DNA from: Ralstonia pickettii DTP0602
GTDB taxonomy: Bacteria > Pseudomonadota > Gammaproteobacteria > Burkholderiales > Burkholderiaceae
Assembly: GCA_000471925.1 (NCBI GenBank)
Contig: CP006668.1
Span: 2,480,001 to 2,544,000 of the forward strand
Direction: 5' to 3'
DNA length: 64,000 bases
This document shows, in pieces, positions 34,151 to 47,811 of this stretch; positions within the stretch are counted from its first letter, which is position 1, and the number at the start of each line of letters is the position of its first letter. Below the pieces are notes generated by a model. The model searched no databases. It saw only the letters and a program-made list of their open reading frames with translations, and was not told where the DNA came from. Made by a program: the position numbers and the translations under genes.

Positions 34151-34807
34151 ATGGCGATTAGACTGGGCGAACAAGCCCCCGACTTCACCGCCGACACCAC
34201 CGAGGGAAAGATCAATTTCCATGAGTGGATCGGCGACGGCTGGGCCATCCTGTTCTCGCATCCCAAGGACTTCACGCCGGTATGCACCACCGAACTGGGC
34301 TATATGGCCGGGCTCAAGCCCGAGTTCGACAAGCGCAATACCAAGATCATCGGCCTGAGCGTCGACCCGGTCAGCGACCACCAGCGCTGGGCCAAGGACA
34401 TCGAGGAAACGCAGGGCCATGCCGTCAACTACCCGATGATCGGCGATGCCGACCTGACCGTGGCCAAGCTCTACGACATGATCCACCCCGAGGCCAGCGG
34501 CAGCGGCCCGCGCACGGCGGTCGACAACGCGACCGTCCGCTCGGTGTTCCTCATCGGTCCGGACAAGAAGGTCAAGGCCATGCTGGTGTACCCGATGAGC
34601 GCCGGGCGCAATTTCGATGAAGTGCTGCGGCTGCTGGATTCGCTGCAGCTCAACGCCAAGCACACCGTGGCCACGCCGGTGAACTGGAAGCCGGGCGAGG
34701 ACGTCATCATTCCGACATCGGTTTCGGACGAAGATGCCAAGAAAAAATACCCGCAAGGCTTCAAGACCCTGAAGCCTTACCTGCGCACGGTGGAACAGCC
34801 CAAGTAA
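34151..34807 (+). CDS. 1-Cys peroxiredoxin (Prx6 type)
   Basis: A 218-residue peroxidase that reduces hydrogen peroxide and organic peroxides. The peroxidatic Cys is C45 in DFTPVCTTELG and it is the only cysteine in the protein, so a resolving Cys is absent and an external thiol is needed. The C-terminal dimer domain (VATPVNWKPGEDVIIP) is typical of the Prx6 group. A strong AAGGAG precedes the start, and a perfect hairpin follows 75 bp after the stop. Confidence 0.95.
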   Translation: MAIRLGEQAPDFTADTTEGKINFHEWIGDGWAILFSHPKDFTPVCTTELGYMAGLKPEFDKRNTKIIGLSVDPVSDHQRWAKDIEETQGHAVNYPMIGDADLTVAKLYDMIHPEASGSGPRTAVDNATVRSVFLIGPDKKVKAMLVYPMSAGRNFDEVLRLLDSLQLNAKHTVATPVNWKPGEDVIIPTSVSDEDAKKKYPQGFKTLKPYLRTVEQPK

Positions 34808-35196: not shown

Positions 35197-36153
35197 TCAA
35201 CGCGTCAGCACATCGCGGATGGTATCCGCCAGTTCCTTCGCAACAAACTTCGCCACATAGGCGTCCGCGCCCACCTTGCGCACATGCTCCTCGCTGGCCT
35301 CGCCCGACAGTGACGAGTGAATCACCACCGGCAACTGCTTCAGCCGGCTGTCCGCCTTGATCTTGCGCGTCAGTGTAAAGCCGTCCATCTCCGGCATTTC
35401 CAGGTCGGTCAGCACCAGCGCCACCTCGTCGTGCACGGACTTGCCATGGCTGGCGGCCTCGGCAGCGATCTTGTCGAGCAGGTCCCAGGCCTCCTTGCCC
35501 GACTTGGTCATCACCACCGGGGCGCCCAGGGCCTTCAGCCCCTGCTCGATCAGCCCACGCGCCAGGGCCGAATCGTCGGCGGCAATCACCTTGGCCCCCG
35601 GCCGCAGGTTCAGTTGCGGTCCGACCGCGCCCGGGTCGACGTCCGGCTGGCGCTTCGGCAGCACGTCGCGCAGGATCTGCTCCACGTCCAGCACCTGCAC
35701 CAGCCGCGCGTTGTCCGTGCCCGCATCGAGCTTGGCGATGCTGGTCACATGGCCGGTGCGCACGCTCGCCTCGGCCGAATGCACCTGGTTCCACTCCAGG
35801 CGCACGATTTCCTCCACCGCCTCCACCGCAAAGCCCTGCGTCGAGCGCGCGTACTCCGTCACCAGCAGGATGCCCAGCCCGCTGCGCGGCTTGCAGCCAA
35901 CCAGCCTGGGCAGGTCGATCACCGGAATCACCTGGCCGCGGATGTCGGACATGCCCAGGATCGACGGATCGGCGCCGACCACCGTGGTCACCGGCGGCAT
36001 CACCAGGATCTCGCGCACCTTGAACACGTTGATGCCGAACAGCTCCGACTGGCCGGACTGCTCCGCGTCGCCGAGCCGGAACAGCAGCAGCTCGAACTGG
36101 TTGTTGTTGGTGAGGTTCGTCCGTTCGTCGATGTCCCTCATGGAACTGCTCAT
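35197..36153 (-). CDS. cheV: CheV-type chemotaxis coupling protein with receiver domain
   Basis: A 318-residue cytoplasmic protein. The N-terminal CheW-like domain (about 15-165; LFGINVFKVREILVMP, GMSDIRGQVIPVIDLPRLVG) couples receptors to CheA. The C-terminal receiver domain (about 185-318) has the acidic pair AADDS, the phosphorylated Asp in LVLTDLEMPEMDGF, and the Lys in YVAKF. Phosphorylation of CheV tunes adaptation. ATG 36153 follows GGGAG; another ATG four codons later is possible. It is isolated from other chemotaxis genes and ends at a clear terminator. Confidence 0.93.
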   Translation of the reverse strand: MSSSMRDIDERTNLTNNNQFELLLFRLGDAEQSGQSELFGINVFKVREILVMPPVTTVVGADPSILGMSDIRGQVIPVIDLPRLVGCKPRSGLGILLVTEYARSTQGFAVEAVEEIVRLEWNQVHSAEASVRTGHVTSIAKLDAGTDNARLVQVLDVEQILRDVLPKRQPDVDPGAVGPQLNLRPGAKVIAADDSALARGLIEQGLKALGAPVVMTKSGKEAWDLLDKIAAEAASHGKSVHDEVALVLTDLEMPEMDGFTLTRKIKADSRLKQLPVVIHSSLSGEASEEHVRKVGADAYVAKFVAKELADTIRDVLTR

Positions 36154-36420: not shown

Positions 36421-36446
36421 AGTTGTTTCCAACTTGTCATAACAAG
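36421..36446 (+). promoter_or_regulatory. Two overlapping palindromes before gntR: probable GntR operator
   Basis: AGTTG-TTTC-CAACT (36421-36434) and CTTGT-CATA-ACAAG (36433-36446) are both perfect 5-bp arms with 4-nt spacers and share two bases. The second fits the GntR/HutC operator pattern GT-N-TA-AC. They end 11 bp before the regulator's ATG, where bound protein would block transcription or initiation, so autoregulation of the operon is likely. Confidence 0.6.
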
Positions 36447-36457
36447 ATGTCGATCCG

Positions 36458-37333
36458 ATGACGACCCGGACCAACGCGGAACCCACACCCGAAACAGCGG
36501 AACTGTCCGAAGCGACACCGATCCCGCTGCCGCTCTACACCCAGATCAAGGACGCCCTGCGTGCCCGCATCCTCGACGGCACCTATCCGCCGCATCACCA
36601 GATGCCATCGGAAAGCGAGCTGGGCGAGCGCTTCTCCGCCAGCCGCATCACCGTGCGGCAGGCACTGGGCGACCTGCAGAAAGAGGGCCTGATCTTCAAG
36701 ATCCACGGCAAGGGCACGTTCGTCTCCAAACCCCGCGCCTTCCAGAACATCACCTCCCTGCAAGGCTTTGCCGAGGCGATGTCGAGCATGGGCTACGAGA
36801 TCCTCAACCAGGTGCGCAGCTGCAAATGCGTGCCGGCCAGCCGCCACGTTGCCGCGCAATTGCGGCTGCGCGAGGGCGATCCGGTGGTGGAGATCAGGCG
36901 GGTGCGCCTGCTCAACCGCGAACCGGTGTCGCTGGAGCTGACCTGGGTGCCCGAGGCCGTCGGCAAGCGGCTGGTCACGGCCGACCTGGCCACGCGCGAC
37001 ATCTTCCTGATCCTGGAGAACGACTGCGGCGTAAAGCTCGGCCATGCCGACCTCAGCGTCGATGCGATCCTCGCCGACGAAGACCTGACCCAGGCCCTGC
37101 GCATCCAGGAAGGCGCGCCGGTGCTGCGCATCGAACGCCTGACCCACGATGCGCAGGGCACGCCGATCGATTACGAGTTTCTCTACTTCCGCGGCGACGC
37201 GTTCCAGTACCGGCTGCGCGTCGACCGGCACAAGGCTGCACCCGCGACCGTGGCGCCAGCCACAACCTCCACCAAGGCCGCAGGCCCGGCCCGGCCTCGC
37301 AACCCTGCCAGCAAGGGGAAGTCCTCCGCATGA
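36458..37333 (+). CDS. GntR-family (HutC subfamily) transcriptional regulator
   Basis: A 291-residue regulator. The winged-helix domain (residues about 24-92) shows PLYTQIKDALRARIL, MPSESELGERFSASRITVRQAL and GKGTFV. The UTRA effector domain follows (about 105-255; YEILNQVRSC, EPVSLELTWVPEAV, DYEFLYFRGDAF). HutC relatives sense small metabolites, so it probably responds to the substrate of the flavoprotein operon. The C-terminal 35 residues are Ala/Lys/Pro-rich and disordered. Its stop overlaps the flavoprotein start (ATGA), placing the regulator at the head of the operon it probably controls. Confidence 0.93.
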   Translation: MTTRTNAEPTPETAELSEATPIPLPLYTQIKDALRARILDGTYPPHHQMPSESELGERFSASRITVRQALGDLQKEGLIFKIHGKGTFVSKPRAFQNITSLQGFAEAMSSMGYEILNQVRSCKCVPASRHVAAQLRLREGDPVVEIRRVRLLNREPVSLELTWVPEAVGKRLVTADLATRDIFLILENDCGVKLGHADLSVDAILADEDLTQALRIQEGAPVLRIERLTHDAQGTPIDYEFLYFRGDAFQYRLRVDRHKAAPATVAPATTSTKAAGPARPRNPASKGKSSA

Positions 37334-39102
37334 ACACCCTGACTCACGAATACGACATCGTTGTCGTCGGCGGCGGCACCGCCGGTCCGATGGCCGCGAT
37401 CAAGGCCAAGGAGCGCAACCCCGCGCTGCGCGTGCTGCTGCTCGACAAGGCGCACGTCAAGCGCAGCGGCGCCATCTCGATGGGCATGGACGGCCTGAAC
37501 AATGCCGTGATCCCCGGCCATGCCACGCCCGAGCAGTACACCCGCGAGATCACCGTGGCCAACGACGGCATCGTCGACCAGTCGACCGTCTACGCCTACG
37601 CGCGCCACAGCTTCACCACCATCGAGCAGCTCGACCGCTGGGGCGTCAGGTTCGAGAAGGACGAGACCGGCGACTACGCGGTGAAGAAGGTCCATCACAT
37701 GGGCTCTTATGTCCTGCCGATGCCGGAAGGGCACAACGTCAAGAAGGTGCTCTACCGCCAGCTCAAGCGCGCCCGGGTGGAGATCACCAACCGCATCGTC
37801 GCCACCCGCGTGCTGACCGATGCCAACGCCGGCGCCTGCGGCGTGATGGGATTCGACTGCCGCACCGCGGACTTCCACGTGATCCGCGCGCGCGCCGTGA
37901 TCCTGTGCTGCGGTGCCGCCGGCCGCCTTGGCCTGCCCGCCTCCGGCTACCTGATGGGCACCTACGAGAACCCGACCAATGCCGGCGACGGCTATGCCAT
38001 GGCGTATCACGCCGGTGCGGCGCTGGCGAATCTCGAATGCTTCCAGATCAATCCGCTGATCAAGGATTACAACGGGCCGGCGTGCGCCTATGTAACCGGA
38101 CCGCTGGGAGGCTATACCGCCAACGGCAAGGGCGAGCGCTTTATCGAATGCGATTACTGGAGCGGCCAGATGATGTGGGAGTTCTATCAGGAGCTCCAGG
38201 GCGGCAACGGCCCCGTCTTCCTGAAGCTCGACCATCTCGCGGAAGAGACTATCCAGACCATCGAGACCATTCTCCACACCAACGAACGGCCCAGCCGCGG
38301 ACAGTTCCACGCCGGCCGCGGCACCGACTACCGCAAGCAGATGGTGGAGATGCATATCTCGGAGATCGGCTTCTGCAGCGGCCACAGCGCCTCCGGCGTG
38401 CATGTGAACGAACGCGCCGAGACCACCGTGCCGGGCCTGTATGCCGCCGGCGACATGGCCGCGGTGCCGCACAACTACATGCTGGGTGCCTTCACCTATG
38501 GCTGGTTTGCCGGGCAGAACGCGGCCGAGTATGTCGTTGGCCGCAGCCTGCCCGAAGCCGATGCGGCCCAGGTGGAGGCGGAGCGTGCCCGCGTGCTAGC
38601 GCCGCTCGCGCGCGAGCACGGCCTGCCCCCGGCCCAGGTGGAATACAAGCTGCGCCGCATGGTCAACGACTACCTGCAGCCGCCCAAGGTCACGCGCAAG
38701 ATGGAAATTGGCCTGCAGCGTTTCGACGCCATCGCTGAGGATATCGACCAGATCCGCGCCGCCAATCCGCACGAATTGATGCGCGCGGTGGAGGTGATGG
38801 CGATCCGCGACTGCGCGGAAATGGCGGCACGTGCCTCGTTGTTCCGCACCGAGAGCCGATGGGGTCTCTATCACCACCGCGTGGACTATCCGCAGCGCAA
38901 TGATGCGGAATGGTTCTGCCATGCCCACCTGAGCAAGGACGCATCCGGGCGCATGGTCAGCCACAAGCGCGCGATCGAACCGTACATCGTCCCGGTGGAT
39001 GGCGACGACGCCACCGCCTACCAGCGGCTGCGCGTCAGCCGCGGTGAATCCGCAACGTCAGCCACCGCCACTGCCAAAGCCACCACCCTGGCCGCCGCCT
39101 GA
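37330..39102 (+). CDS. AprA-like FAD-dependent oxidoreductase (fumarate reductase/succinate dehydrogenase flavoprotein family)
   Basis: A 590-residue flavoprotein. The FAD-binding motif VVVGGGTAGPMAA begins at residue 11, the segment KRSGAISMGMDGLN resembles the AprA stretch that holds the flavin, and the C-terminal FAD contact is TTVPGLYAAGDMAAVPH. Its partner, encoded next, is a small 2[4Fe-4S] protein like AprB, so the pair resembles adenylylsulfate reductase AprAB. There is no sat, qmo or dsr gene nearby, so APS as substrate is doubtful. It could oxidise or reduce an organosulfur or other imported compound delivered by the adjoining ABC system. The chemistry is unknown. Confidence 0.75.
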   Translation: MNTLTHEYDIVVVGGGTAGPMAAIKAKERNPALRVLLLDKAHVKRSGAISMGMDGLNNAVIPGHATPEQYTREITVANDGIVDQSTVYAYARHSFTTIEQLDRWGVRFEKDETGDYAVKKVHHMGSYVLPMPEGHNVKKVLYRQLKRARVEITNRIVATRVLTDANAGACGVMGFDCRTADFHVIRARAVILCCGAAGRLGLPASGYLMGTYENPTNAGDGYAMAYHAGAALANLECFQINPLIKDYNGPACAYVTGPLGGYTANGKGERFIECDYWSGQMMWEFYQELQGGNGPVFLKLDHLAEETIQTIETILHTNERPSRGQFHAGRGTDYRKQMVEMHISEIGFCSGHSASGVHVNERAETTVPGLYAAGDMAAVPHNYMLGAFTYGWFAGQNAAEYVVGRSLPEADAAQVEAERARVLAPLAREHGLPPAQVEYKLRRMVNDYLQPPKVTRKMEIGLQRFDAIAEDIDQIRAANPHELMRAVEVMAIRDCAEMAARASLFRTESRWGLYHHRVDYPQRNDAEWFCHAHLSKDASGRMVSHKRAIEPYIVPVDGDDATAYQRLRVSRGESATSATATAKATTLAAA

Positions 39103-39115
39103 AGGAAACACTGCC

Positions 39116-39361
39116 ATGGCCTACACACCGCATGAGATCGCCCAGCGCAGCAGCGCGCCGGTCACCATCGATGAAGACAAGTGCATTGCCGACAAGGGCT
39201 GCACCGTCTGCGTCGATGTCTGCCCGATGGACCTGCTGGCCATCGACCTGACCAAGGGCAAGGCTTACATGCAGTTCGACGAATGCTGGTATTGCATGCC
39301 CTGCGAGAAGGATTGCCCCACCGGCGCGGTCCGGGTCGAGATCCCGTACCTGCTGCGCTGA
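39116..39361 (+). CDS. AprB-like 2[4Fe-4S] ferredoxin subunit
   Basis: An 81-residue iron-sulfur protein. One cluster motif is CIADKGCTVCVDVCP (C-x5-C-x2-C-x3-C) and the other is CWYCMPCEKDCP (C-x2-C-x2-C-x3-C). The spacing in the first motif and the Trp next to the second cluster recall AprB, though the long C-terminal tail of AprB that wraps around AprA is missing. It should carry electrons to or from the flavoprotein. Start ATG 39116 follows AAGGAAA, 13 bp after the flavoprotein stop. Confidence 0.88.
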   Translation: MAYTPHEIAQRSSAPVTIDEDKCIADKGCTVCVDVCPMDLLAIDLTKGKAYMQFDECWYCMPCEKDCPTGAVRVEIPYLLR

Positions 39362-39494
39362 CGCGCTTCGTTTTCCTGATTCTCCGGAATTCCGCGCAAG
39401 CCCGATGCGCCCTGCTTTCCCTGCCCGACAAGCCCCCCTTAGCCCGCGCGTGCATGCGTCCGCCAAAGACAACAGAACAGATCAGAGGAAACCC

Positions 39495-40919
39495 ATGAAA
39501 GCATCCACCAGCACCATCCGCCTGCTCCTTGCGCTGGCTGCCGCCAGCTTGGCCGGGCCGGCCAGCGCGGAAGCCATCCGCGTCGCCATCGGCACGCAGG
39601 ACACCACCATCAACTGCGCCACCGGCGGCCTGCTGATTCGCGAGCTCAAGCTGCTCGACAAGTACCTGCCGCGCACCGGCAAGTACAAGGACGTCAGCTA
39701 CGACGTGCAATGGAAGAACTTCACCTCCGGCCCGCCGCTGACCAACGAGATGGTGGCGGACAAGCTGGACCTCGGCGCGATGGCGGATTTCCCCGGCTCG
39801 CTGAATGCCGCGGCCTTCCAGAAGGCCGGCAAGAAGAGCCTGTTTATCGCCCCGCTGTCCGGCAATGCGATCGGCACCGGCAATGGCATCGTGGTGCCGG
39901 CGGACTCTCCTGTCCAGTCGCTGGCGGAACTCAAGGGCAAGACCATTTCGGTGCCCTTCGGCTCCACCGCGCACGGCATGCTGCTGCGCGCGATCAAGCG
40001 GCAGGGCTGGGACCCGGACAAGGACGTGACACTGGTCTCGCAATCGCCTGAAGTCGGCGGCTCGGCGCTGCAGGCGCGCAAGGTGGACGGGCATGCCAAC
40101 TTTGTGCCGTTCCCGGAGCTGTTCGCCTTCCGCGGCTTTGCCCGCAAGATCTATGACGGCGCCCAGGCCGAGGCACCCACCTTCCACGGCGCGCTGGTGA
40201 ACGCGGAATACGCGCAGAAGTACCCGGAGATCGTGGTGGCCTACCTGCGTGCCGCGATCGAGGCCGACCGCCTGATGGCAGCGGAGCCCGAGAAATACAG
40301 CGAGCTGATCGCGAAGGTGACCGGCATCGACGCCGAGGTGGACTACCTGTTCCACGGCCCGCTCGGCCTGCAGAACCGCGACTACACCTGGAAGCCGGAG
40401 TATCGCCAGGCGCTGCAGACCTCGATCGAGACGCTGAAGCTGCTCAAGCGCACCGATGCCGACCTCAGCGCCGATAGCGTGATCGACGACCGCTATATCC
40501 GCGAAGCCTTCCGGCTGGAAGGGCTGGATTACGCCGCGCGCCTGAAGTCTTACGACAAACAGCCGCTGGCGGCCAAGGACGCCGCCACAGGCAAACCGAT
40601 CGCCGATCCGAAACTGGCCGCACAGCTGTGGCTGCAGGGCGAGCCGAAGGTGCGCGCCTATGCCTCGCCGGCGGCGGCGTTCGCGGCGCTCAGGCAGGCC
40701 GGCAAGGATGGCAAGAAGGCGCGTGTGCTGTATGTGCATGACCGCAACACCGGCCTGAAGCTGCTGGCCGACAAGGCGTGGTACGTGCAGGACGGCAAGG
40801 GACAGGTGAGCGCCTTCCTGCTCAAGGGCTCGGCCGATAGCTGGGCCAGCAGCCATGGCGGCAACGTGCGTGACTTTGCCGCGGTCAGCGGCAGCGCTGT
40901 CGCCGTGGCCAGCCACTGA
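39495..40919 (+). CDS. ABC transporter binding protein with a NosL-like C-terminal extension
   Basis: A 474-residue exported protein. Signal peptide residues 1-25 (IRLLLALAAASLAGPASA) precede a NitT/TauT-type binding domain of normal length (to about 330; AIRVAIGTQDTTINC, TEMVADK-like NEMVADKLDLGAMADFPG). About 90 further residues follow, with KARVLYVHDRNTGLKL, KAWYVQDGKGQVSAFL and the motif GSADSWASSHGGNV, which resembles the FxxxxxAxxFAxxHGG region of the copper-binding NosL family. If real, the fusion would combine substrate binding and metal or cofactor binding. The ligand is unknown. It lies 133 bp behind the ferredoxin. Confidence 0.8.
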   Translation: MKASTSTIRLLLALAAASLAGPASAEAIRVAIGTQDTTINCATGGLLIRELKLLDKYLPRTGKYKDVSYDVQWKNFTSGPPLTNEMVADKLDLGAMADFPGSLNAAAFQKAGKKSLFIAPLSGNAIGTGNGIVVPADSPVQSLAELKGKTISVPFGSTAHGMLLRAIKRQGWDPDKDVTLVSQSPEVGGSALQARKVDGHANFVPFPELFAFRGFARKIYDGAQAEAPTFHGALVNAEYAQKYPEIVVAYLRAAIEADRLMAAEPEKYSELIAKVTGIDAEVDYLFHGPLGLQNRDYTWKPEYRQALQTSIETLKLLKRTDADLSADSVIDDRYIREAFRLEGLDYAARLKSYDKQPLAAKDAATGKPIADPKLAAQLWLQGEPKVRAYASPAAAFAALRQAGKDGKKARVLYVHDRNTGLKLLADKAWYVQDGKGQVSAFLLKGSADSWASSHGGNVRDFAAVSGSAVAVASH

Positions 40920-40933
40920 AGCGGAGCGCAGCG

Positions 40934-41394
40934 ATGACCTCGATCTCTCTTGAAGCGGCGGCGCCCCCGGCTGCGCCCGCCCCGGCGGGCTTGGCCCGGG
41001 TGCGGCTGGCCCGCTGGCTGGTGCGCGTCGCCGCCTTGGCGAGCTGCATCGCGCTGTGGCAACTGGCTTCGTCGCACCGGGCCCACCTTGGCATCGTCAC
41101 CTTCGCCAACGTGCCGGCGCCCAGCGACGTGGTGCCCGCGGCCTGGCAGCTGCTGCAGTCGCCCAAGCTGGTGCTGCACCTGGGCAACAGCTTGTACCGC
41201 GTGTTCGCCGGCTTCGGCGCGGCGGCGCTGACGGGTATCGTGCTCGGCATGGCGATCGGCCGCTCGCGCTGGCTGGAGGACCTGCTGCTGCCGCCGCTGG
41301 AGGTGCTGCGGCCGATCCCGGGCGTGGCGTGGATTCCGCTGGCGATCCTGATGTTCCCCTCTTCGGAACTGAGCATGATCTTCATCACCTTTAT
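40934..41394 (+). pseudogene. 5' part of an ABC permease gene interrupted by an insertion sequence
   Basis: Codons 1-153 of an SsuC-type permease (MTSISLEAAAPPAAP ... VLRPIPGVAWIPLAILM ... MIFITF). The coding sequence stops matching at the TTTAT target site; reading runs on into the insertion for 33 codons to a stop at 41494. The missing part resumes in the right phase at 43364: joined without one TTTAT copy, the two pieces give an uninterrupted 281-residue permease (ITFIGALFPILLNTI across the junction). This truncated product would lack the coupling loop. Confidence 0.9.
41390..41394 (+). repeat. Target site duplication, left copy (TTTAT)
   Basis: TTTAT directly left of the insertion sequence, repeated at 43359-43363. 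A 6-bp reading (TTTATC) is possible if the element is taken to begin one base later. Confidence 0.85.
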
Positions 41395-41507
41395 CCGAAG
41401 TTCCATGGTGACGCCGCCGCTGCGGCGTCGCGAAGCCCTTTTCCTGATTGAGGAATCGGCTCATCGGGGGGCGTTCGATGCCCTCATTTTGTAGTCACTA
41501 AAAGTTC

Positions 41508-41535
41508 TTGACATTGGCGGGTTTTCTCCTATTCT
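41508..41535 (+). promoter_or_regulatory. Transposase promoter (predicts a leaderless mRNA)
   Basis: -35 TTGACA (41508-41513), 16-nt spacer, -10 TATTCT (41530-41535). The start codon at 41543 lies only 7 bp after the -10 box, exactly where transcription should start, and no Shine-Dalgarno is present. Confidence 0.6.
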
Positions 41536-41542
41536 TCTGGCT

Positions 41543-43279
41543 ATGCCAGCACGAAACGGAACCGCTCACGTCGTTACGACGACCCGCAAGTACAAGGACC
41601 AGATCTATCGCACCCACCTGTTGCGGCGCAGTTACCGCGAGGACGGCGTGGTCAAGAACGAGACGCTGGGCAACCTGTCCCACTTGCCCGAGGCACTGAT
41701 CGAGATCATCCGCCGCTCACTCAAGGGCGAGACCTTCGTGCCGCTGGGCGAGGCGTTCGAGGTGACACGCTCGCGCGCTCACGGCCACGTGCAGGCGGTG
41801 GCCACGGCCATGCAGCGTCTGGGCTTTGCCTCGCTGATCGCCTCCAAGCCTTCGCGCGAGCGCGACCTGGTGCTGGCGATGGTGGCCGCGCGCATCGCGG
41901 CGCCGCACACGAAGCTGGCCACCACGCGCTGGTGGCACACCAGCACCCTGGCGGAGGACTTCGGCGTGACCGAGGCCAACGAGAACGACCTGTACGCGAC
42001 AATGGACTGGCTGCTCGCGCGCCAGGGCACAATCCAGAAGAAGCTCGCCGCGCGCCACTTGAGCGCCGGTGGCCTGGTGCTGTATGACCTGAGCTCCAGC
42101 TACTTCGAGGGCAACACCTGCCCGCTGGCCAAGCTTGGCTACAGCCGCGATGGCAAGAAGGGGCTGCTACAGGTCAACTACGGCTTGCTCACCGATGCGC
42201 GCGGCTGCCCAGTGGCGGTGTCGGTGCATGAGGGCAACGTGGCCGACAGCCAGACCTTCATGCCCGAGGTGCGGCGCCTGCAAGAGGAATTTGGTCTCTC
42301 CCGATTGGTCATGGTGGGCGATCGCGGCATGATCTCCAGCAAGGCCATCGACCAGATGCGTGAAGGCGGTGACCTGGGCTGGATCACCGCGCTCAAGAGC
42401 GCCTCGATCCGCCCGCTGCTCGAGCAAGGGCAACTGCAGCTTGGCCTGTTCGACGAGCGCAATCTGCTGGAGCTGAGTTCACCGGACTATCCGGGCGAGC
42501 GGCTGGTGGCGTGCCGCAATCCGGAACTGGCCAGGCTACGTGCCCACAAGCGAGAAGAGTTGCTGGCGGCCACCGAGGCGTGCCTGCAGCCGATCGTTGC
42601 CCGCGTGCAGGCGGGCAAGCTTGCCGGGCGCGATCAGATCGGCCTGCGCGTGGGCAAGGTGATCGACAAGTACAAGGTGGCCAAGCACTTTGCGCTGAGT
42701 ATCGACGACGCGGCCTTCACGTTCAGCCGCAACAGCGAGGGCATCGCCCGCGAGGCGGCGCTCGACGGCCTCTACATCATCCGCACTTCGGTGAGTGCGG
42801 CGCAGATGGACTCGGCCGAGTGCGTGCGCAACTACAAGGCGCTGGCCAACGTGGAGCGCGCGTTCCGTTCGCTAAAAACGGTGGACCTGAAGGTGCGGCC
42901 AATCCATCACCGCACGGCCGATCGGGTGCGTGCGCATATCCTGCTGTGCATGCTGGCCTACTACGTCGAATGGCACATGCGTGAGGCTTGGCGCGAACTG
43001 ATGTTCGCCGACCCGGATCAGGCCGCCAAGGCCACGCGTGATCCGGTGGCGCCTGCCGTGCGCTCTGCGGCAGCGCTGGCCAAGGCGGCGCGCCACACAC
43101 TTGACGACGGCACGCCCGTGCACAGCTTCTCGAGCTTGATGGCCGAACTCGCCACGATCGTGCGTAACACCTGCCGCACACCCAGCGCTGGCGCTGAAGT
43201 GCCGACGTTCGAACTCGTCACCACGGCAAACGCGAAACAGAAGCAGGCTCTGGAATTGCTTCAGCAAATCCGCGTGTAG
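41543..43279 (+). CDS. IS1634-family transposase
   Basis: A 578-residue DDE transposase of the COG5421/IS1634 group. Likely catalytic acids: Asp in LVLYDLSSSYFEG (about residue 180), Asp in LVMVGDRGMIS (about 258) and Glu in NYKALANVERAFRSLK (about 440), which together form the DDE site within an RNase H-like fold. The length is within the family range and the frame is intact. The N-terminal 140 residues probably bind the terminal repeats. There is no cargo gene in the element. Confidence 0.93.
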   Translation: MPARNGTAHVVTTTRKYKDQIYRTHLLRRSYREDGVVKNETLGNLSHLPEALIEIIRRSLKGETFVPLGEAFEVTRSRAHGHVQAVATAMQRLGFASLIASKPSRERDLVLAMVAARIAAPHTKLATTRWWHTSTLAEDFGVTEANENDLYATMDWLLARQGTIQKKLAARHLSAGGLVLYDLSSSYFEGNTCPLAKLGYSRDGKKGLLQVNYGLLTDARGCPVAVSVHEGNVADSQTFMPEVRRLQEEFGLSRLVMVGDRGMISSKAIDQMREGGDLGWITALKSASIRPLLEQGQLQLGLFDERNLLELSSPDYPGERLVACRNPELARLRAHKREELLAATEACLQPIVARVQAGKLAGRDQIGLRVGKVIDKYKVAKHFALSIDDAAFTFSRNSEGIAREAALDGLYIIRTSVSAAQMDSAECVRNYKALANVERAFRSLKTVDLKVRPIHHRTADRVRAHILLCMLAYYVEWHMREAWRELMFADPDQAAKATRDPVAPAVRSAAALAKAARHTLDDGTPVHSFSSLMAELATIVRNTCRTPSAGAEVPTFELVTTANAKQKQALELLQQIRV

Positions 43280-43358
43280 ACAGAAACTGGAACCCGGGAA
43301 TCACGACAAGTGCCTGTCGCAAAAGGGGAAACTCGCCCAGGCGGCTGGTGAACTTCGG

Positions 43359-43363
43359 TTTAT
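43359..43363 (+). repeat. Target site duplication, right copy (TTTAT)
   Basis: Second TTTAT copy, immediately after the right terminal repeat of the insertion sequence. Confidence 0.85.
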
Positions 43364-43748
43364 CGGCGCGCTCTTCCCCATCCTGCTCAACACCATCCAC
43401 GGCGTGGAGCGTACCGATCCCCGCCTGGTTGCCACCGCACGCAGCCTGGGCGCGGGGCGCTGGACCGTCTTCCCCGAGGTGCTGCTGCCCGCCGCGCTCC
43501 CCAGCATCGTCACCGGACTGGCAATCGGCATGGGCACGTCCTGGTTCTGCCTGGTCACCGCCGAGATGATTGCCGGGCAGTACGGCATCGGCTACTACAC
43601 CTGGGAGGCGTACAACCTGCAGAACTATGCGGATATCGTCGTCGGCATGCTGCTGATCGGTGCCTTCGGCATGGGCAGCAGCGCGCTGATCAAGCGCGTC
43701 GGCGCCTGGCTGATGCCGTGGACCCGCCTGCAGGAGGTGCGCGCATGA
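43364..43748 (+). pseudogene. 3' part of the interrupted ABC permease gene
   Basis: Encodes the remaining 128 residues of the SsuC-type permease: GALFPILLNTIHGVERTDPR is the coupling-loop region, followed by RSLGAGRWTVFPEVLLPAALPSI and two membrane segments. It has no start codon with a ribosome site, so it should not be translated as a useful protein. The stop overlaps the ATG of the ATPase gene (ATGA), so loss of translation here may also reduce ATPase expression. Confidence 0.9.
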
Positions 43749-44590
43749 CCGGGACCAGCCAGAACATCCGCGCGGGCCGCCTGCAGGTGCGCGGCCTTGA
43801 CGTGGCGCTGGGCAACGGCGATGCAGGTTTTACCGCCGTGCACCAGCTTTCCATCGATATCCCGGCGGGGCAGTTCGTCTGCATCCTCGGGCCCTCCGGC
43901 TGCGGCAAGTCCACGCTGCTGGGCACCATCGCCGGCCACCTGCCGGCCGCGGCCGGCGAGATCCTGCTCGACGGCGTGCCGGTGCGCGGCCCTGCCCCGG
44001 AGCGTGGGCTCGTGTTCCAGCAACACTCGCTGTTTCCCTGGAAGCGCGTGCTCGACAACGTCGGCTTCGGCCTCAAGATGCAGGGCGTGCCCGCCGCGGA
44101 GCGCAGGCGCGAGGCGCAGGCCCTGCTCGACCTCGTCGGCCTGGGCAGCTTCGCGCAGCGCTACCCCGCCCAGCTCTCGGGCGGCATGCAACAGCGCGTG
44201 GAGATTGCGCGCGTGCTGATCAACCGGCCGCGGGTGCTGCTGATGGACGAGCCGTTCGGCGCACTGGATGCACAGACCCGCGCCTATATGCAGGCGCTGC
44301 TGCTCGACGTCTGGGCGCAGATGCGCACCACCGTGGTCTTCGTCACCCATGACATCGACGAGGCGCTGTTCCTGGCCGACCGCGTGCTGGTGATGTCGCA
44401 CCGGCCCGGCCGCATCCTTGAAGACATCCTCGTTCCGTTCGACCGGCCTCGCGATGGCGACCTGCTGACCGATGACGGCTTTATCCGTCTCAAGCGCCAC
44501 TGCCGCGAGCTGCTGCACGAGCACTACCGGGGCGGCCCGCTCCAGGGCGTGCCCGCTCCCATCCAAAGCGCGCTGGCGACTGCCGCCTGA
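43745..44590 (+). CDS. ABC transporter ATPase of the AprA-like operon
   Basis: A 281-residue ATP-binding subunit of the nitrate/sulfonate type. Walker A GPSGCGKS is at residues 49-56, the Q-loop is [10 protein letters not shown], the signature LSGGMQQRV, Walker [13 protein letters not shown] and the switch His is in VTHDIDEA. It belongs with the binding protein at 39495 and the permease now split by the insertion; without the permease it has no obvious job. The start overlaps the permease stop by 4 nt. Confidence 0.93.
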
Positions 44591-44610
44591 CTGCCCTATT
44601 GCCCCGACTT

Positions 44611-45609
44611 ATGCCGCACGTTTTCGCCTTGCCCGACGATTCCCTGTTTGACCTTCATCCCGCCATTGGCGCACTGGCGCCACGCCTGGCCGACCCCGAC
44701 CCGGCGATTCGCCGGGTGGCGGTGCTCCAGTTGGCCGACCTCGAAGATGAAGCCGGTGTGCCCCTGCTGCTGCAACGCCTGCAAACCGATCCGGCCGAGA
44801 CCGTGCGCGCCGAGGCCGCGCGCACGCTGGCCAGCTGGGAGCTGGAAGCGGTCGTGCCGGCGCTGGCGGCGGCGCTGGCCGACCCCTGCCGCGACGTAGC
44901 CGAGGCTGCGGCCCAGGGCCTGTCGGAACTGAAGGATCCCGCCTCCGGCGCCGCCTTGCTGCCATGGGTGTCGCACGACGATCCCTTTGTCCGCGCGGCC
45001 GCCTGGCGCGGCCTGCGCGAGCTGCGCTACGCAGCGGGATTCGATGCGGCGATGGCCGCACTGTCCGACGCGGCGGCCTCAGTGCGGCGCGAAGCGGTGA
45101 CTGTGCTGGGCTGGCTCAAACGCAGCGAAGCCCTGCCCGCGCTGGCCCAGGTCGCCGCCAGCGATGCCGACACCGAAGTCAGGCGGGCCGCCGCGGGCGC
45201 GCTCGGCCTGGCAGCGGACCCGTCAGCGCGCGACGCCCTGCTCTCCGCCTTGCGCGACGGCGCCTGGCAGGTGCGGGAAGAAGCCGCGCAGACGCTGGGA
45301 AAGCTGAAATTCCCCGAAGCCGTGCGTCCGCTGATCGATGCACTGGAAGATCCCTACTGGCAGGTCCGGCTGCAGGCTGCGAGAGCCCTCGGCAAGCTGC
45401 GTGACCGCGCGGCGCTGGTGCCGCTGACGGCGCAGCTTGTTCATTCGATCAGCAACCTGCGCAAGGAAGCTGCCCTGTCGCTGGGAAGCCTGCAGGACGC
45501 TGCGGCGCTGCCGGCGCTGGCCGCCGCGGCGAACGACGCGGATCCGGAGGTACGCAAGGCGGTATGGATTGCGCTGGCACAGATCGGCCAACCGCAGGGT
45601 GAGGCATGA
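44611..45609 (+). CDS. HEAT/PBS-lyase-like repeat protein
   Basis: A 332-residue soluble protein made of about nine helical repeats of roughly 31 residues, such as DPDPAIRRVAVLQLADLED, DTEVRRAAAGALGLAAD, DGAWQVREEAAQTLGKLK and DPYWQVRLQAARALGKLRD. Such repeats form a curved solenoid for protein binding; related repeats occur in phycobilin lyases and in scaffolds for metal-cofactor enzymes. It has no cysteine, so it should not hold a cluster itself. Its place between the ATPase and DUF971 genes suggests a chaperone or docking role for the flavoprotein-ferredoxin pair. ATG 44611 is chosen over TTG 44599. Stop overlaps the next start (ATGA). Confidence 0.87.
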   Translation: MPHVFALPDDSLFDLHPAIGALAPRLADPDPAIRRVAVLQLADLEDEAGVPLLLQRLQTDPAETVRAEAARTLASWELEAVVPALAAALADPCRDVAEAAAQGLSELKDPASGAALLPWVSHDDPFVRAAAWRGLRELRYAAGFDAAMAALSDAAASVRREAVTVLGWLKRSEALPALAQVAASDADTEVRRAAAGALGLAADPSARDALLSALRDGAWQVREEAAQTLGKLKFPEAVRPLIDALEDPYWQVRLQAARALGKLRDRAALVPLTAQLVHSISNLRKEAALSLGSLQDAAALPALAAAANDADPEVRKAVWIALAQIGQPQGEA

Positions 45610-45884
45610 GCGGCGGCATGGTTGTACCCACGCGCCTGGAGCTTGCGCCCGCCGAAGGCAGGCTGCGCATCTGGTGGCCGGACGGACAGTGCCAGTCACT
45701 GGACCATGCCCGCTTGCGCGCGGCATGCCGATGCGCCGCCTGCCGCAGCCTGCCTTCTGAAGAAGGGGCAGCGCAGGCGGTGCGCATCACTGCCCTGGAG
45801 GAAATGGGCTACGGCATCCAGATCGTGTTCAGCGACGGACATGACCGCGGCATCTACCCCTGGCCGTATCTGCAGGCGCTGTAG
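45606..45884 (+). CDS. DUF971 (GBBH-like N-terminal domain) protein
   Basis: A 92-residue single-domain protein. The family core is visible: LRIWWPDGQCQSLDHARLRAAC, the cysteine motif CRCAACR, and the end VFSDGHDRGIYPWPYL. The same domain forms the N-terminus of gamma-butyrobetaine hydroxylase, where the Cys/His set binds zinc, and stand-alone forms often sit near iron-sulfur assembly factors. Here it may help mature the iron-sulfur ferredoxin, which is inference from location. The start overlaps the HEAT gene by 4 nt, and it ends the operon. Confidence 0.88.
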   Translation: MSGGMVVPTRLELAPAEGRLRIWWPDGQCQSLDHARLRAACRCAACRSLPSEEGAAQAVRITALEEMGYGIQIVFSDGHDRGIYPWPYLQAL

Positions 45885-45892
45885 GCGGGCAT

Positions 45893-46153
45893 CTACCCTC
45901 CCGCCAGCGCCTGCAGGATATGCACCTCGTCCGTCTCCTTCAGCGCCGCATCCAGCCGCATCAGCTGCGTACGGTTCACGAACACGCGGATATACGGCCG
46001 CAGCTTGCCCTGCTCGTCGACGATGCGAAAGCGCATGCCCGGAAACTGCCGGTCGAGATCCTCGAGCAGTTCGCCGATGCTGGCACCATGGGCTTCGACG
46101 TACTCCCGCTGCCCGGTGTAGGAGAAGAGCGGCGTCGCGATGCGGACCTGCAT
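45893..46153 (-). CDS. MoaD/ThiS-family ubiquitin-like sulfur carrier
   Basis: An 86-residue beta-grasp protein. The fold is suggested by VRIATPLFSYTGQREY, SIGELLEDLDRQFPG, YIRVFVNRTQLMRL and DEVHILQALAGG, and the protein ends in Gly-Gly, the feature needed for adenylation and thiocarboxylate formation. No MoaE or ThiG gene is nearby, so it is not a normal cofactor-synthesis gene. It follows a BNR-repeat gene by 29 bp on the same strand. It is convergent with the AprA-like operon, 8 bp from its end. Confidence 0.87.
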   Translation of the reverse strand: MQVRIATPLFSYTGQREYVEAHGASIGELLEDLDRQFPGMRFRIVDEQGKLRPYIRVFVNRTQLMRLDAALKETDEVHILQALAGG

Positions 46154-46182
46154 GGATGTTCTCCGGATCGACTGTTGCTTCG

Positions 46183-47334
46183 TTACGCGGGCCGCGCCAC
46201 GGTGACGGCGTACACCTGCGGCAGATGGCTGGCGAGGCATTGCCATGAATCGCCCTCATCGCCGCTGGCCCAGATCTCGCCGCCAGTGGTGCCGAAGTAC
46301 ACGCCTACCGGCGCATGGCCGTCGGTGGCCATGGCCTGGCGCTTGACGGTGAACCAACCCTGTTCGGGCGGCAGGCCGCGGTCCTGGCGCTGCCAGCTTT
46401 CGCCGCCGTCGCGCGTGACGTAGGCCGCCGGGCGGCCGCCGGGGCTGACGCGGGGCCAGACGTCGCTGCCATCCATCGGGAAGACCCAGACGGTGCGCGC
46501 ATCGCGCGGGTGGGCGACGATGGGAAAGCCGATGTCGCCGACCTCGGCCGGCATGGCTTCACCGATGCGCTTCCACACGCCTTCACGCCGGTTCATGCGG
46601 TAGATGCCGCAGTGGTTCTGCTGGTACAGGATGTCGGGCGCGGCGGGGTGTTGCAGCACGCAGTGCGGATCCTGGCCGTATTCCGGGTTGGGATCGGGCA
46701 GGAAGGTGGCGAGGCTGCCGCGGTTCAGCGGCTGCCAGTCGGCGCCGCCGTCGGTGCTCTCGAACACGCCGCCGCTGGACATGCCGATATAGAGATGCCG
46801 CGCATCGCGCGGATCGACCAGCACGGAATGCATCTTGGGGCCGTCGGGCGTGCCGTCCTGCTCGCCGCCGGTCCATTCGCGCCATTTCGGATGATCGTTG
46901 AAGCCGGTCACCGGTTCCCAGGTCGCGCCGTGGTCCGTGCTGTGGAACAGGCCTTGCGGCGAGGTGCCGGCGTACCAGGTGCCGGGCTCGCTGGCGTGGC
47001 CGGGTGTGAGCCAGAACACGTGGTCGACGACGCGGCCGGTTTCACCTTCCGGCACTTTGTCGAAGCCGGGCGGGCGCGTGGCTTCGGTCCAGTTGCGGCC
47101 ACCGTCGGGGGAGCGGAACACGGTCGGGCCAAGGTGGCCGGTGCGCGCGGCCATCAGCATGCGCAACGGTTCGCGCGGGTCCTGCACGATGTGGTGGATG
47201 GTGTGGCCGAGGAACGTCGGGCCCTGGATCTGCCAGTCGCGCCGCGTGGCGTCGCTGGTCAGGAACCAGGCGCCCTTGGTCGTGGCGACCAGCAACATCA
47301 CGGGGCCGGTGTCGGGGGCAGTGGAAGTCGTCAT
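46183..47334 (-). CDS. BNR/sialidase-like beta-propeller protein
   Basis: A 383-residue protein with several Asp-box (SxDxGxTW) repeats: RSPDGGRNWTE, HSTDHGATWEP, ESTDGGADWQP, VTRDGGESWQR and ASGDEGDSWQC. These mark the turns of a sialidase-like propeller. No signal peptide is seen, so it is probably cytoplasmic, unlike true sialidases, and the catalytic Arg triad is not evident. The function is unknown; the adjoining MoaD-like gene, 29 bp downstream, suggests that the two proteins work together. ATG 47334 follows GGAG in CAGGAGCCAAG. Confidence 0.85.
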   Translation of the reverse strand: MTTSTAPDTGPVMLLVATTKGAWFLTSDATRRDWQIQGPTFLGHTIHHIVQDPREPLRMLMAARTGHLGPTVFRSPDGGRNWTEATRPPGFDKVPEGETGRVVDHVFWLTPGHASEPGTWYAGTSPQGLFHSTDHGATWEPVTGFNDHPKWREWTGGEQDGTPDGPKMHSVLVDPRDARHLYIGMSSGGVFESTDGGADWQPLNRGSLATFLPDPNPEYGQDPHCVLQHPAAPDILYQQNHCGIYRMNRREGVWKRIGEAMPAEVGDIGFPIVAHPRDARTVWVFPMDGSDVWPRVSPGGRPAAYVTRDGGESWQRQDRGLPPEQGWFTVKRQAMATDGHAPVGVYFGTTGGEIWASGDEGDSWQCLASHLPQVYAVTVARPA

Positions 47335-47811
47335 CTTGGCTCCTGCAATAAGGCCGTCGAACGATGTTTCCGAGTCTAGTACATGTAGACAGTGTTCACA
47401 ATTGACGCTTGAGCCGATCTGCGTGGGCGGCTGCAAGCTCCCGCGAACCGGCCGCGAAGTAGTACGGAGTTAAAAGAGGATATCCGCAGGTTGGGTAGAC
47501 ATTGCCGCTCATGTATGGCATAAGCAATGTTCCTTCCGACATCGCCGCCCCGACGACCATGTTCCGCCCCGTCCGCTTCGCCGCACTGAACCGCCCGGCC
47601 CTGCCGGCGGCAGGCGTGCGCGCGGGCACCGCGCAGCGTCCGGGCGTTGCCATCGACCAGGCCGCCATCGGCCAGGTCCGCCGCGCCGTGCTTTTCCTGG
47701 CCGTGCGGGCAGCTCGGGGCACCACCCTCCAACCCTGAGCTTTCCCGCACGGCCCATGTCGCGGATGCCATCCGGTATCCGCCCGAACATGCAGCCAGGA
47801 GAAAGCCAGTC
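47335..47811. other. Gap between the BNR gene and the GNAT region
   Basis: The left 150 bp are AT-richer and should hold the BNR-gene promoter on the minus strand. A frame at 47559-47738 encodes about 59 Arg/Ala-rich residues but has no ribosome site, and I do not call it. No strong hairpin is visible. Confidence 0.4.

Follow-up and report, generated by a model that had tools for sequence, protein, structure and literature searches.

The 64,000-nucleotide window analysed here (contig CP006668.1 of Ralstonia pickettii DTP0602, positions 2,480,001 to 2,544,000) carries an operon that combines a flavoprotein of the AprA class, named after the flavin adenine dinucleotide (FAD) subunit of adenosine 5'-phosphosulfate (APS) reductase, with a short ferredoxin, an ATP-binding cassette (ABC) importer, a HEAT-repeat protein, a DUF971 protein and a GntR-type regulator (Table 1). 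The operon lies on the second contig of a three-contig, 8.1 Mb genome and spans a proposed operator, from 36433, followed by genes from 36458 to 45884. An initial annotation had proposed that these genes form one unit, and all of them are found, in the order it described and on the plus strand; the overlap it had seen between gntR and the flavoprotein gene measures 4 nt, as do the overlaps of permease with ATPase and of HEAT with DUF971. Its picture of the later genes as tightly packed holds at these last two junctions but not between the ferredoxin and binding-protein genes, which are 133 nt apart. The eight products expected from the unit have to be corrected to seven uninterrupted genes and one broken gene, the permease, into which an IS1634-family element is inserted.

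Table 1. Features of the operon, in positions of the window
Feature	Position	Strand	Evidence
Proposed GntR operator, palindrome CTTGTCATAACAAG	36433..36446	.	Sole exact CTTGTNATRACAAG match in the 8.1 Mb genome
gntR, GntR/UTRA (HutC-type) regulator	36458..37333	+	Pfam GntR 3.8e-20, UTRA 6.3e-39
AprA-class FAD flavoprotein, 590 aa, NF006131/PRK08275 family	37330..39102	+	NF006131, tree, active-site columns
2x[4Fe-4S] ferredoxin, short AprB-like, 81 aa	39116..39361	+	8 Cys and W58 invariant
TauA/SsuA-type substrate-binding protein with C-terminal NosL-like domain	39495..40919	+	PDB profile matches, Foldseek
ABC permease, 5' part (interrupted)	40934..41394	+	SsuC/NtrB/TauC-like, under cut-offs
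IS1634-family insertion element	41395..43358	+	Transposase open reading frame 41543-43279; NF033559 324.5 bits, cut-off 100
ABC permease, 3' part (interrupted)	43359..43748	+	BPD_transp_1 1.6e-16
ABC ATPase (TauB-like)	43745..44590	+	ABC_tran 2.2e-33; taurine ATPase model 251 bits, below cut-off 357
HEAT-repeat protein	44611..45609	+	HEAT_2 3.9e-54; C-terminal part of NF010374 matched at 3.7e-32
DUF971 (GBBH-like_N) protein, CRCAAC motif	45606..45884	+	PF06155 2.3e-22; best PDB 3luu, uncharacterised

Flavoprotein and ferredoxin

The flavoprotein belongs to the NF006131 (PRK08275) family, scoring 1145.8 bits against a cut-off of 587, and stays far below the cut-offs of both TIGR02061 aprA (179.4 bits; cut-off 641.75) and TIGR01812 of succinate dehydrogenase and fumarate reductase (SDH/FRD; 165.3 bits; cut-off 567.3). 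Its nearest named relatives are from Cupriavidus, and 6417 of 7999 scored candidates are related to it at E<=1e-100. NCBI names NF006131 'fumarate reductase', a name for which our analysis found no support; in the literature searched we found no functional study of this family or of NF010374 (PRK13800), the form of the flavoprotein with HEAT repeats, the two being named fumarate reductase/succinate dehydrogenase.

Among solved structures, the nearest relative is the alpha subunit of the Methanothermococcus 3'-phosphoadenosine 5'-phosphosulfate (PAPS) reductase (MtPAPSR, 8a8o; 202 bits with the single sequence, 285 bits with a profile), followed by AprA and then SdhA. In a tree of 39 rows (18 of the NF006131 family, 15 AprA, MtPAPSR and 5 of SDH/NadB type), the 18 family rows group together (support 91/96), MtPAPSR joins AprA without them (100/99), and the SDH/NadB rows stand separate (100/100). 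The family is placed as a clade of its own beside AprA plus MtPAPSR and away from SdhA/NadB, an arrangement whose joining order needs caution, as the tree tool flagged long branches that include MtPAPSR and several SDH-type rows. This position bears out the earlier description of an AprAB-like pair outside the characterised enzyme groups included in the tree.

The substrate site of A. fulgidus AprA, which we take to comprise R265, W234, N74 and H398, provides a reference for the active-site columns. The Asn and His columns are kept in all 15 AprA rows, in MtPAPSR and in 18/18 family rows. The Arg and Trp columns, each invariant in the 15 AprA rows and MtPAPSR, read Leu and Tyr, respectively, in every one of the 18 family rows, and Leu, Tyr, Asn and His occupy the four positions in 133/133 gene-called family rows, a count in which some rows are one genome reached twice. 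Set against E. coli SdhA, in which H242, R286 and R399 are presumably the active-site residues, all 18 family rows have Asn for His242 and Gln for Arg286, and Arg399 falls in a gap. By the marks of residue columns and tree, the flavoprotein belongs with neither the APS reductases nor the fumarate reductases. Fumarate reductase was rejected on the SdhA columns and the tree, and both AprAB proper and PAPS reductase on the substrate-site residues and the tree. Modelling of the flavoprotein with AlphaFold from 25 sequences gave a mean predicted local distance difference test (pLDDT) score of 49, and the model was not used; the FAD proteins of A. caldus (1153 aa) and Nostoc (769 aa) had no significant similarity.

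The ferredoxin carries 8 Cys and an AprB-like Trp (W58) that are invariant in 123/123 rows, which upholds its initial assignment as a two-cluster ferredoxin, and scores 40.8 bits with the aprB model, below the cut-off of 135.65. By its motif, rather than by structure, W58 may be equated with a Trp proposed for electron transfer in MtPAPSR (PMC10322725). The operon pair shares with AprAB (PDB 2fja, 3gyx) the combination of an FAD subunit with a two-[4Fe-4S] ferredoxin subunit, along with the substrate-site Asn and His. It differs from AprAB in the Arg-to-Leu and Trp-to-Tyr changes, in the length of the ferredoxin (81 aa; A. fulgidus AprB has 150 aa), in the additional HEAT, DUF971 and importer genes, and in lying below the curated cut-offs. 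No Qmo or Sat genes are annotated in the 14 regions viewed, for which gene tables are incomplete and no genome-wide search was made. MtPAPSR, the closest solved sequence, is an AprA architecture serving assimilation, and unlike the operon flavoprotein it retains the Arg and Trp and groups with AprA. It offers a precedent for the use of an AprA-type enzyme in assimilation on a different substrate, and its chemistry has been proposed to involve attack of the FAD N5 on the sulfur atom (PMC10322725).

Conservation of the gene set and its accessory proteins

We counted the parts of the gene set at 118 loci that have 7.5 kb or more available on either side, mostly from Proteobacteria and some of them one genome reached twice; neighbouring genes were called with a home-made gene caller that misses small genes, and the parts were counted by tblastn instead. 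Kept near the flavoprotein are the ferredoxin at 117 loci, HEAT at 116, GntR at 100, the ATPase at 99, DUF971 at 95, the binding protein at 89 and the permease at 88. The two loci lacking HEAT as a gene of its own are a fusion in Tsukamurella and a decayed copy (L096). Given that the flavoprotein occurs in 72 of 200 genomes of the same family (its own included; E<=1e-60), the constancy of ferredoxin and HEAT argues that the association of these genes is not due to chance. The initial annotation would have been refuted by homologues whose gene sets fail to keep ferredoxin and importer together; against this condition the ferredoxin stands, and the importer does so only in part.

A search of 72,556 plasmid records finds the flavoprotein at E<=1e-100 on 51 of them, whose hosts include Paraburkholderia, Rhizobium, Sinorhizobium, Acinetobacter, Acidithiobacillus, Methylobacterium, cyanobacteria and actinobacteria; it is also present in 21 of 398 genomes of the phylum, a distribution that points to an accessory trait. 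Its carriers presumably have a mostly aerobic lifestyle. Four operon-bearing 'plasmid' records (H13-H15, H47) are 3.7-11.9 Mb long, the size of chromosomes, and decayed or partial flavoprotein genes occur in Caballeronia (L096) and on two Mesorhizobium plasmids (H50 and H51). The gene set is widespread and apparently unstudied: we found no description of it or of its chemistry in the open PMC literature at the level of titles and abstracts, subscription papers and preprints being outside the search.

Two arrangements bear on the accessory proteins. In Tsukamurella, the flavoprotein is fused to HEAT repeats, its flavoprotein part being 58% identical over 561 aa, and in three cyanobacterial loci, a set that leaves out the further record H44, the next listed gene after HEAT encodes an Mrp/NBP35 iron-sulfur carrier, with domains checked for one of the three, that replaces DUF971. 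The fusion and the carrier at the place of DUF971 suggest that HEAT and DUF971 act as assembly or scaffold factors, in line with the role initially proposed for them. The iron-sulfur protein HCF101 has DUF971 as its C-terminal domain, where a CxCxxC motif has been noted and the role of the domain has been termed elusive (PMC7980591). The DUF971 proteins of two loci (L065 and L108) have no Cys motif, with the gene still accompanying the operon; the protein in the window has CRCAAC.

Importer and regulator

A profile of 12 binding proteins finds TauA (6ssy, 1.1e-25) and SsuA (2x26, 4.7e-23) as its best PDB matches, the leading solved structures being 6ssy, 2x26, 3ksx, 3ksj, 3e4r and 3uif; its C-terminus matches NosL (7og7, 1.5e-4). 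A Foldseek search with a binding-protein model of mean pLDDT 74 returned TauA and SsuA chains for the top eight matches, including SsuA with MOPS and MES. The best models are SsuC/NtrB for the permease and the taurine ATPase for the ATPase, with no NCBIfam cut-off reached, and the binding protein scores 122.8 bits with TIGR01728 SsuA_fam, below the cut-off of 163.5. The binding protein therefore resembles those of TauABC and SsuABC in fold and in nearest sequences, which supports the organosulfur-type importer of the initial annotation; the importer differs from these systems in the extra NosL-like domain and in falling outside every NCBIfam cut-off. This domain makes up the C-terminal third of the binding protein and contains no conserved Cys or Met; copper handling by it was rejected on the lack of invariant or near-invariant Cys or Met there. 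Among the 200 family genomes, the binding protein is present in 34 (E<=1e-80), and in 32 of these the flavoprotein accompanies it, compared with 72 flavoprotein genomes in the full 200; the two binding-protein genomes without the flavoprotein carry a 45% paralogue.

In strain DTP0602 this importer has been hit by an insertion. Homology of the permease to five intact relative loci ends at 41395 and restarts at 43359, and the intervening IS1634-family element ends in 9-nt terminal repeats and is accompanied by a target duplication of 5-6 bp, TTTAT(C). The genome holds seven full-length copies, the operon copy counted, whose 97-100% identity is consistent with a recent insertion; a 100% identical copy lies about 57 kb upstream of the operon copy, at C2:2462732-2464694. 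With the permease broken, uptake through the operon's own importer has probably been lost in this strain, unless another importer substitutes.

The GntR/UTRA regulator reaches no NCBIfam cut-off among the 25 families listed. A palindrome CTTGTn4ACAAG lies upstream of gntR in 50/110 loci, against a mean of 0.015 after base shuffling. Of 19 genomes searched for CTTGTNATRACAAG, 16 have exactly one site, the one in the window included, and 3 have no exact match; in 16/16 genomes the site lies about 772-897 bp 5' of the flavoprotein gene. A single palindrome per genome suggests a regulator with a single target, and GntR/UTRA may control only this operon, with the palindrome as its putative operator. 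In two cyanobacterial loci, the C-terminal domain of a LysR regulator encoded in the opposite direction shares 32-34% identity with the binding protein of the window. These fusions of LysR with a TauA-like binding-protein domain (L099:9379-11415 and L103:9661-11676) would be sensors copying the importer, and they suggest that regulator and importer probably recognise one and the same compound. Both the one operator per genome and the two fusions agree with the substrate-responsive local control foreseen initially. A Crp/Fnr-type gene (cluster 9) is present in 15 loci, including Methylobacterium, Sinorhizobium, Bradyrhizobium, Mesorhizobium and Rhizobium records.

Candidate role in organosulfur assimilation

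A link to sulfur is suggested by the kind of importer, by the enzyme's place in the AprA class and by a modest enrichment of sulfur genes in the neighbourhood. In two cyanobacterial loci, TauE/SafE and YeiH-type exporter genes directly follow the operon; metX, O-acetylhomoserine sulfhydrylase and YeeE genes are near the Nostoc locus, a TauE gene neighbours the Aquabacterium locus, TauD or SsuA genes are nearby in some Pseudomonas and other loci, and DmoA-type genes are also found among the sulfur neighbours. At least one of 17 sulfur-gene queries matches in 37/133 operon loci, the query's own source locus being excluded. In matched windows from the same genomes, sulfur genes occur in 10/50 operon and 5/80 control windows (Fisher p=0.024), taken over two matched sets that have at least one genome in common (L085 = L189); within set B the counts are 7/30 and 2/40 (p=0.03), with operon windows 1.7 kb longer than the controls where the contig allows. 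Post hoc queries, kinship of the loci, the shared genome and the window lengths make this enrichment a support rather than a proof. At five loci of Paraburkholderia and other Burkholderiales (L116, L117, L118, L152 and L166), genes for a family 2A encapsulin, its cysteine desulfurase cargo and a CysE-like protein adjoin the operon.

We envision, with about an even chance of being correct, that the operon serves substrate-induced assimilation of an organosulfur compound, most likely an organosulfonate, by a ferredoxin-dependent AprA-class flavoenzyme that would release sulfite. The TauA/SsuA-type importer would take up a sulfonate-type anion, as its family and fold suggest, and the flavoprotein with its short AprB-like ferredoxin would act on this substrate without adenylation, drawing low-potential electrons most likely from a chain of NADPH and ferredoxin-NADP reductase (FNR)/ferredoxin. 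An S-X bond would thereby be cut, freeing sulfite for normal cysteine synthesis. HEAT and DUF971 would help to mature or assemble the flavoprotein-ferredoxin unit, and GntR/UTRA would respond to a ligand in controlling the operon alone through the one palindrome. The conserved core comprises a single enzyme with its ferredoxin and assembly factors, joined at three quarters of the loci by the importer; the simplest reading is that the enzyme itself frees the sulfur. A reductive direction is favoured by the presence of an FNR-like gene near 11/134 loci (Methylobacterium included) and of an FdxA-type gene near 7/134. Substrates with an S-O, S-N or S-S bond, such as a sulfate ester, a sulfamate or an S-sulfo compound, would be chemically easier than the reduction of a C-S bond. 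A more specific proposal, which we hold only tentatively and consider on the whole doubtful, is an oxygen-independent reductive desulfonase: an AprA-class enzyme that has lost nucleotide recognition, takes its electrons from ferredoxin, cleaves sulfite directly from imported sulfonates, sulfate esters or sulfamates, and possesses its own iron-sulfur maturation set.

Several observations weigh against an organosulfur-assimilating enzyme. Matched set A gives no enrichment (3/20 against 3/40, p=0.39), 40 of the 50 operon windows have no sulfur gene of the query panel, and the queries were picked after viewing the neighbourhoods of loci that share ancestry and are not independent. The direction of the reaction is drawn solely from the FNR and FdxA neighbours of a minority of loci. 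The importer, initially taken for an integral part, does not appear to be an obligate one: the binding protein is not nearby in 29/118 loci and is missing at E<=1e-80 from 40/72 flavoprotein-positive family genomes, so that the flavoenzyme can probably work with another substrate supply. The NMT1-like superfamily of the binding protein also covers nitrate, thiamine precursors and other ligands. We know of no precedent for a flavin that cleaves an ordinary C-S bond reductively.

By its parts, the asfRABC arylsulfonate desulfurisation system is the closest one described (PMC4267179, PMC9694294). It comprises a binding protein, an ABC transporter, a reductase/ferredoxin and a LysR regulator, where the operon has GntR, and is needed for aromatic, not aliphatic, sulfonates (PMC4267179). 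If the operon worked in the same manner, its flavoprotein and ferredoxin would be an electron-transfer pair for a separate SsuD-like oxygenase that cuts the C-S bond. The matching list of parts, the overlap in genera (PMC4267179) and the LysR regulators of the two cyanobacterial versions speak for this alternative, whereas the conserved core of the operon contains no oxygenase. In addition, the family's residues in the columns of the AprA substrate site do not vary from phylum to phylum, as if they formed a site for a substrate and not a bare electron carrier. The asfRAB genes of C. metallidurans CH34 have been assigned to its second replicon (PMC2864759), the whole of which holds no member of the flavoprotein family, the best match being 28% over 266 residues (E=1.4e-14). 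On the evidence of this replicon, rather than of P. putida S-313 AsfA, the operon is probably distinct from asf, and we regard the oxygenase-coupled alternative as unlikely. Two CH34 candidates for asfAB, the TcuA/TcuB pair and a flavoprotein beside dicarboxylate-type transporters (the type judged by eye), lie outside the flavoprotein family.

The fumarate reductase/SDH superfamily fold of the flavoprotein, and FNR neighbours that could operate in both directions, would be compatible with an SDH-like dehydrogenation of an imported (sulfo)carboxylate or sulfonate, with electrons passing through the ferredoxin to NADP+. However, the SdhA residues are replaced by Asn and Gln or fall in a stretch absent from the family, and no conserved downstream enzyme is there to liberate the sulfur, which makes an oxidative role improbable. 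We think it similarly improbable that a sulfur-free anion of nitrate, pyrimidine or carboxylate type is imported and that the sulfur neighbours are incidental. NMT1-like proteins do take many ligands and the neighbourhood statistics are weak, but TauA and SsuA are the best matches in both sequence and fold, the enzyme is of the AprA class, and two cyanobacteria have sulfite/sulfate exporter-type genes straight after the operon. Assimilatory sulfate reduction by an ordinary APS or PAPS reductase, suggested by the AprA-class pair and by a PAPS reductase of the same architecture (PMC10322725), is very improbable, as Leu replaces the substrate Arg in every row, the family is outside the AprA-MtPAPSR clade and below the aprA and aprB cut-offs, and APS requires no importer.

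Organic sulfur in soil consists mainly of sulfonates and sulfate esters. The release of sulfur from sulfonates has been described as oxygenase-dependent (PMC4267179). Should the assignment to organosulfur assimilation be correct, a common accessory operon would hold a flavin/ferredoxin enzyme that represents a third branch of the AprA family, and thousands of proteins now named fumarate reductase or left unnamed would gain a function. A reductive desulfonase, if real, would be common to Proteobacteria, cyanobacteria and Actinomycetota and often plasmid-borne. The gene set also offers a specific test of the roles of DUF971 and HEAT proteins for iron-sulfur enzymes.

Around the operon, genes judged by eye encode a 1-Cys peroxiredoxin-like protein (34151-34807) and a CheV-like protein (35197-36141) just upstream, and MoaD/ThiS-like and repeat-propeller (BNR/sialidase-like) genes on the minus strand (45893-47436) converge on it. 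Clusters of MoaD/ThiS-like and repeat-propeller genes are also found 3' of the operon in L076, L078, L079, L080 and L112, the last two being one genome.

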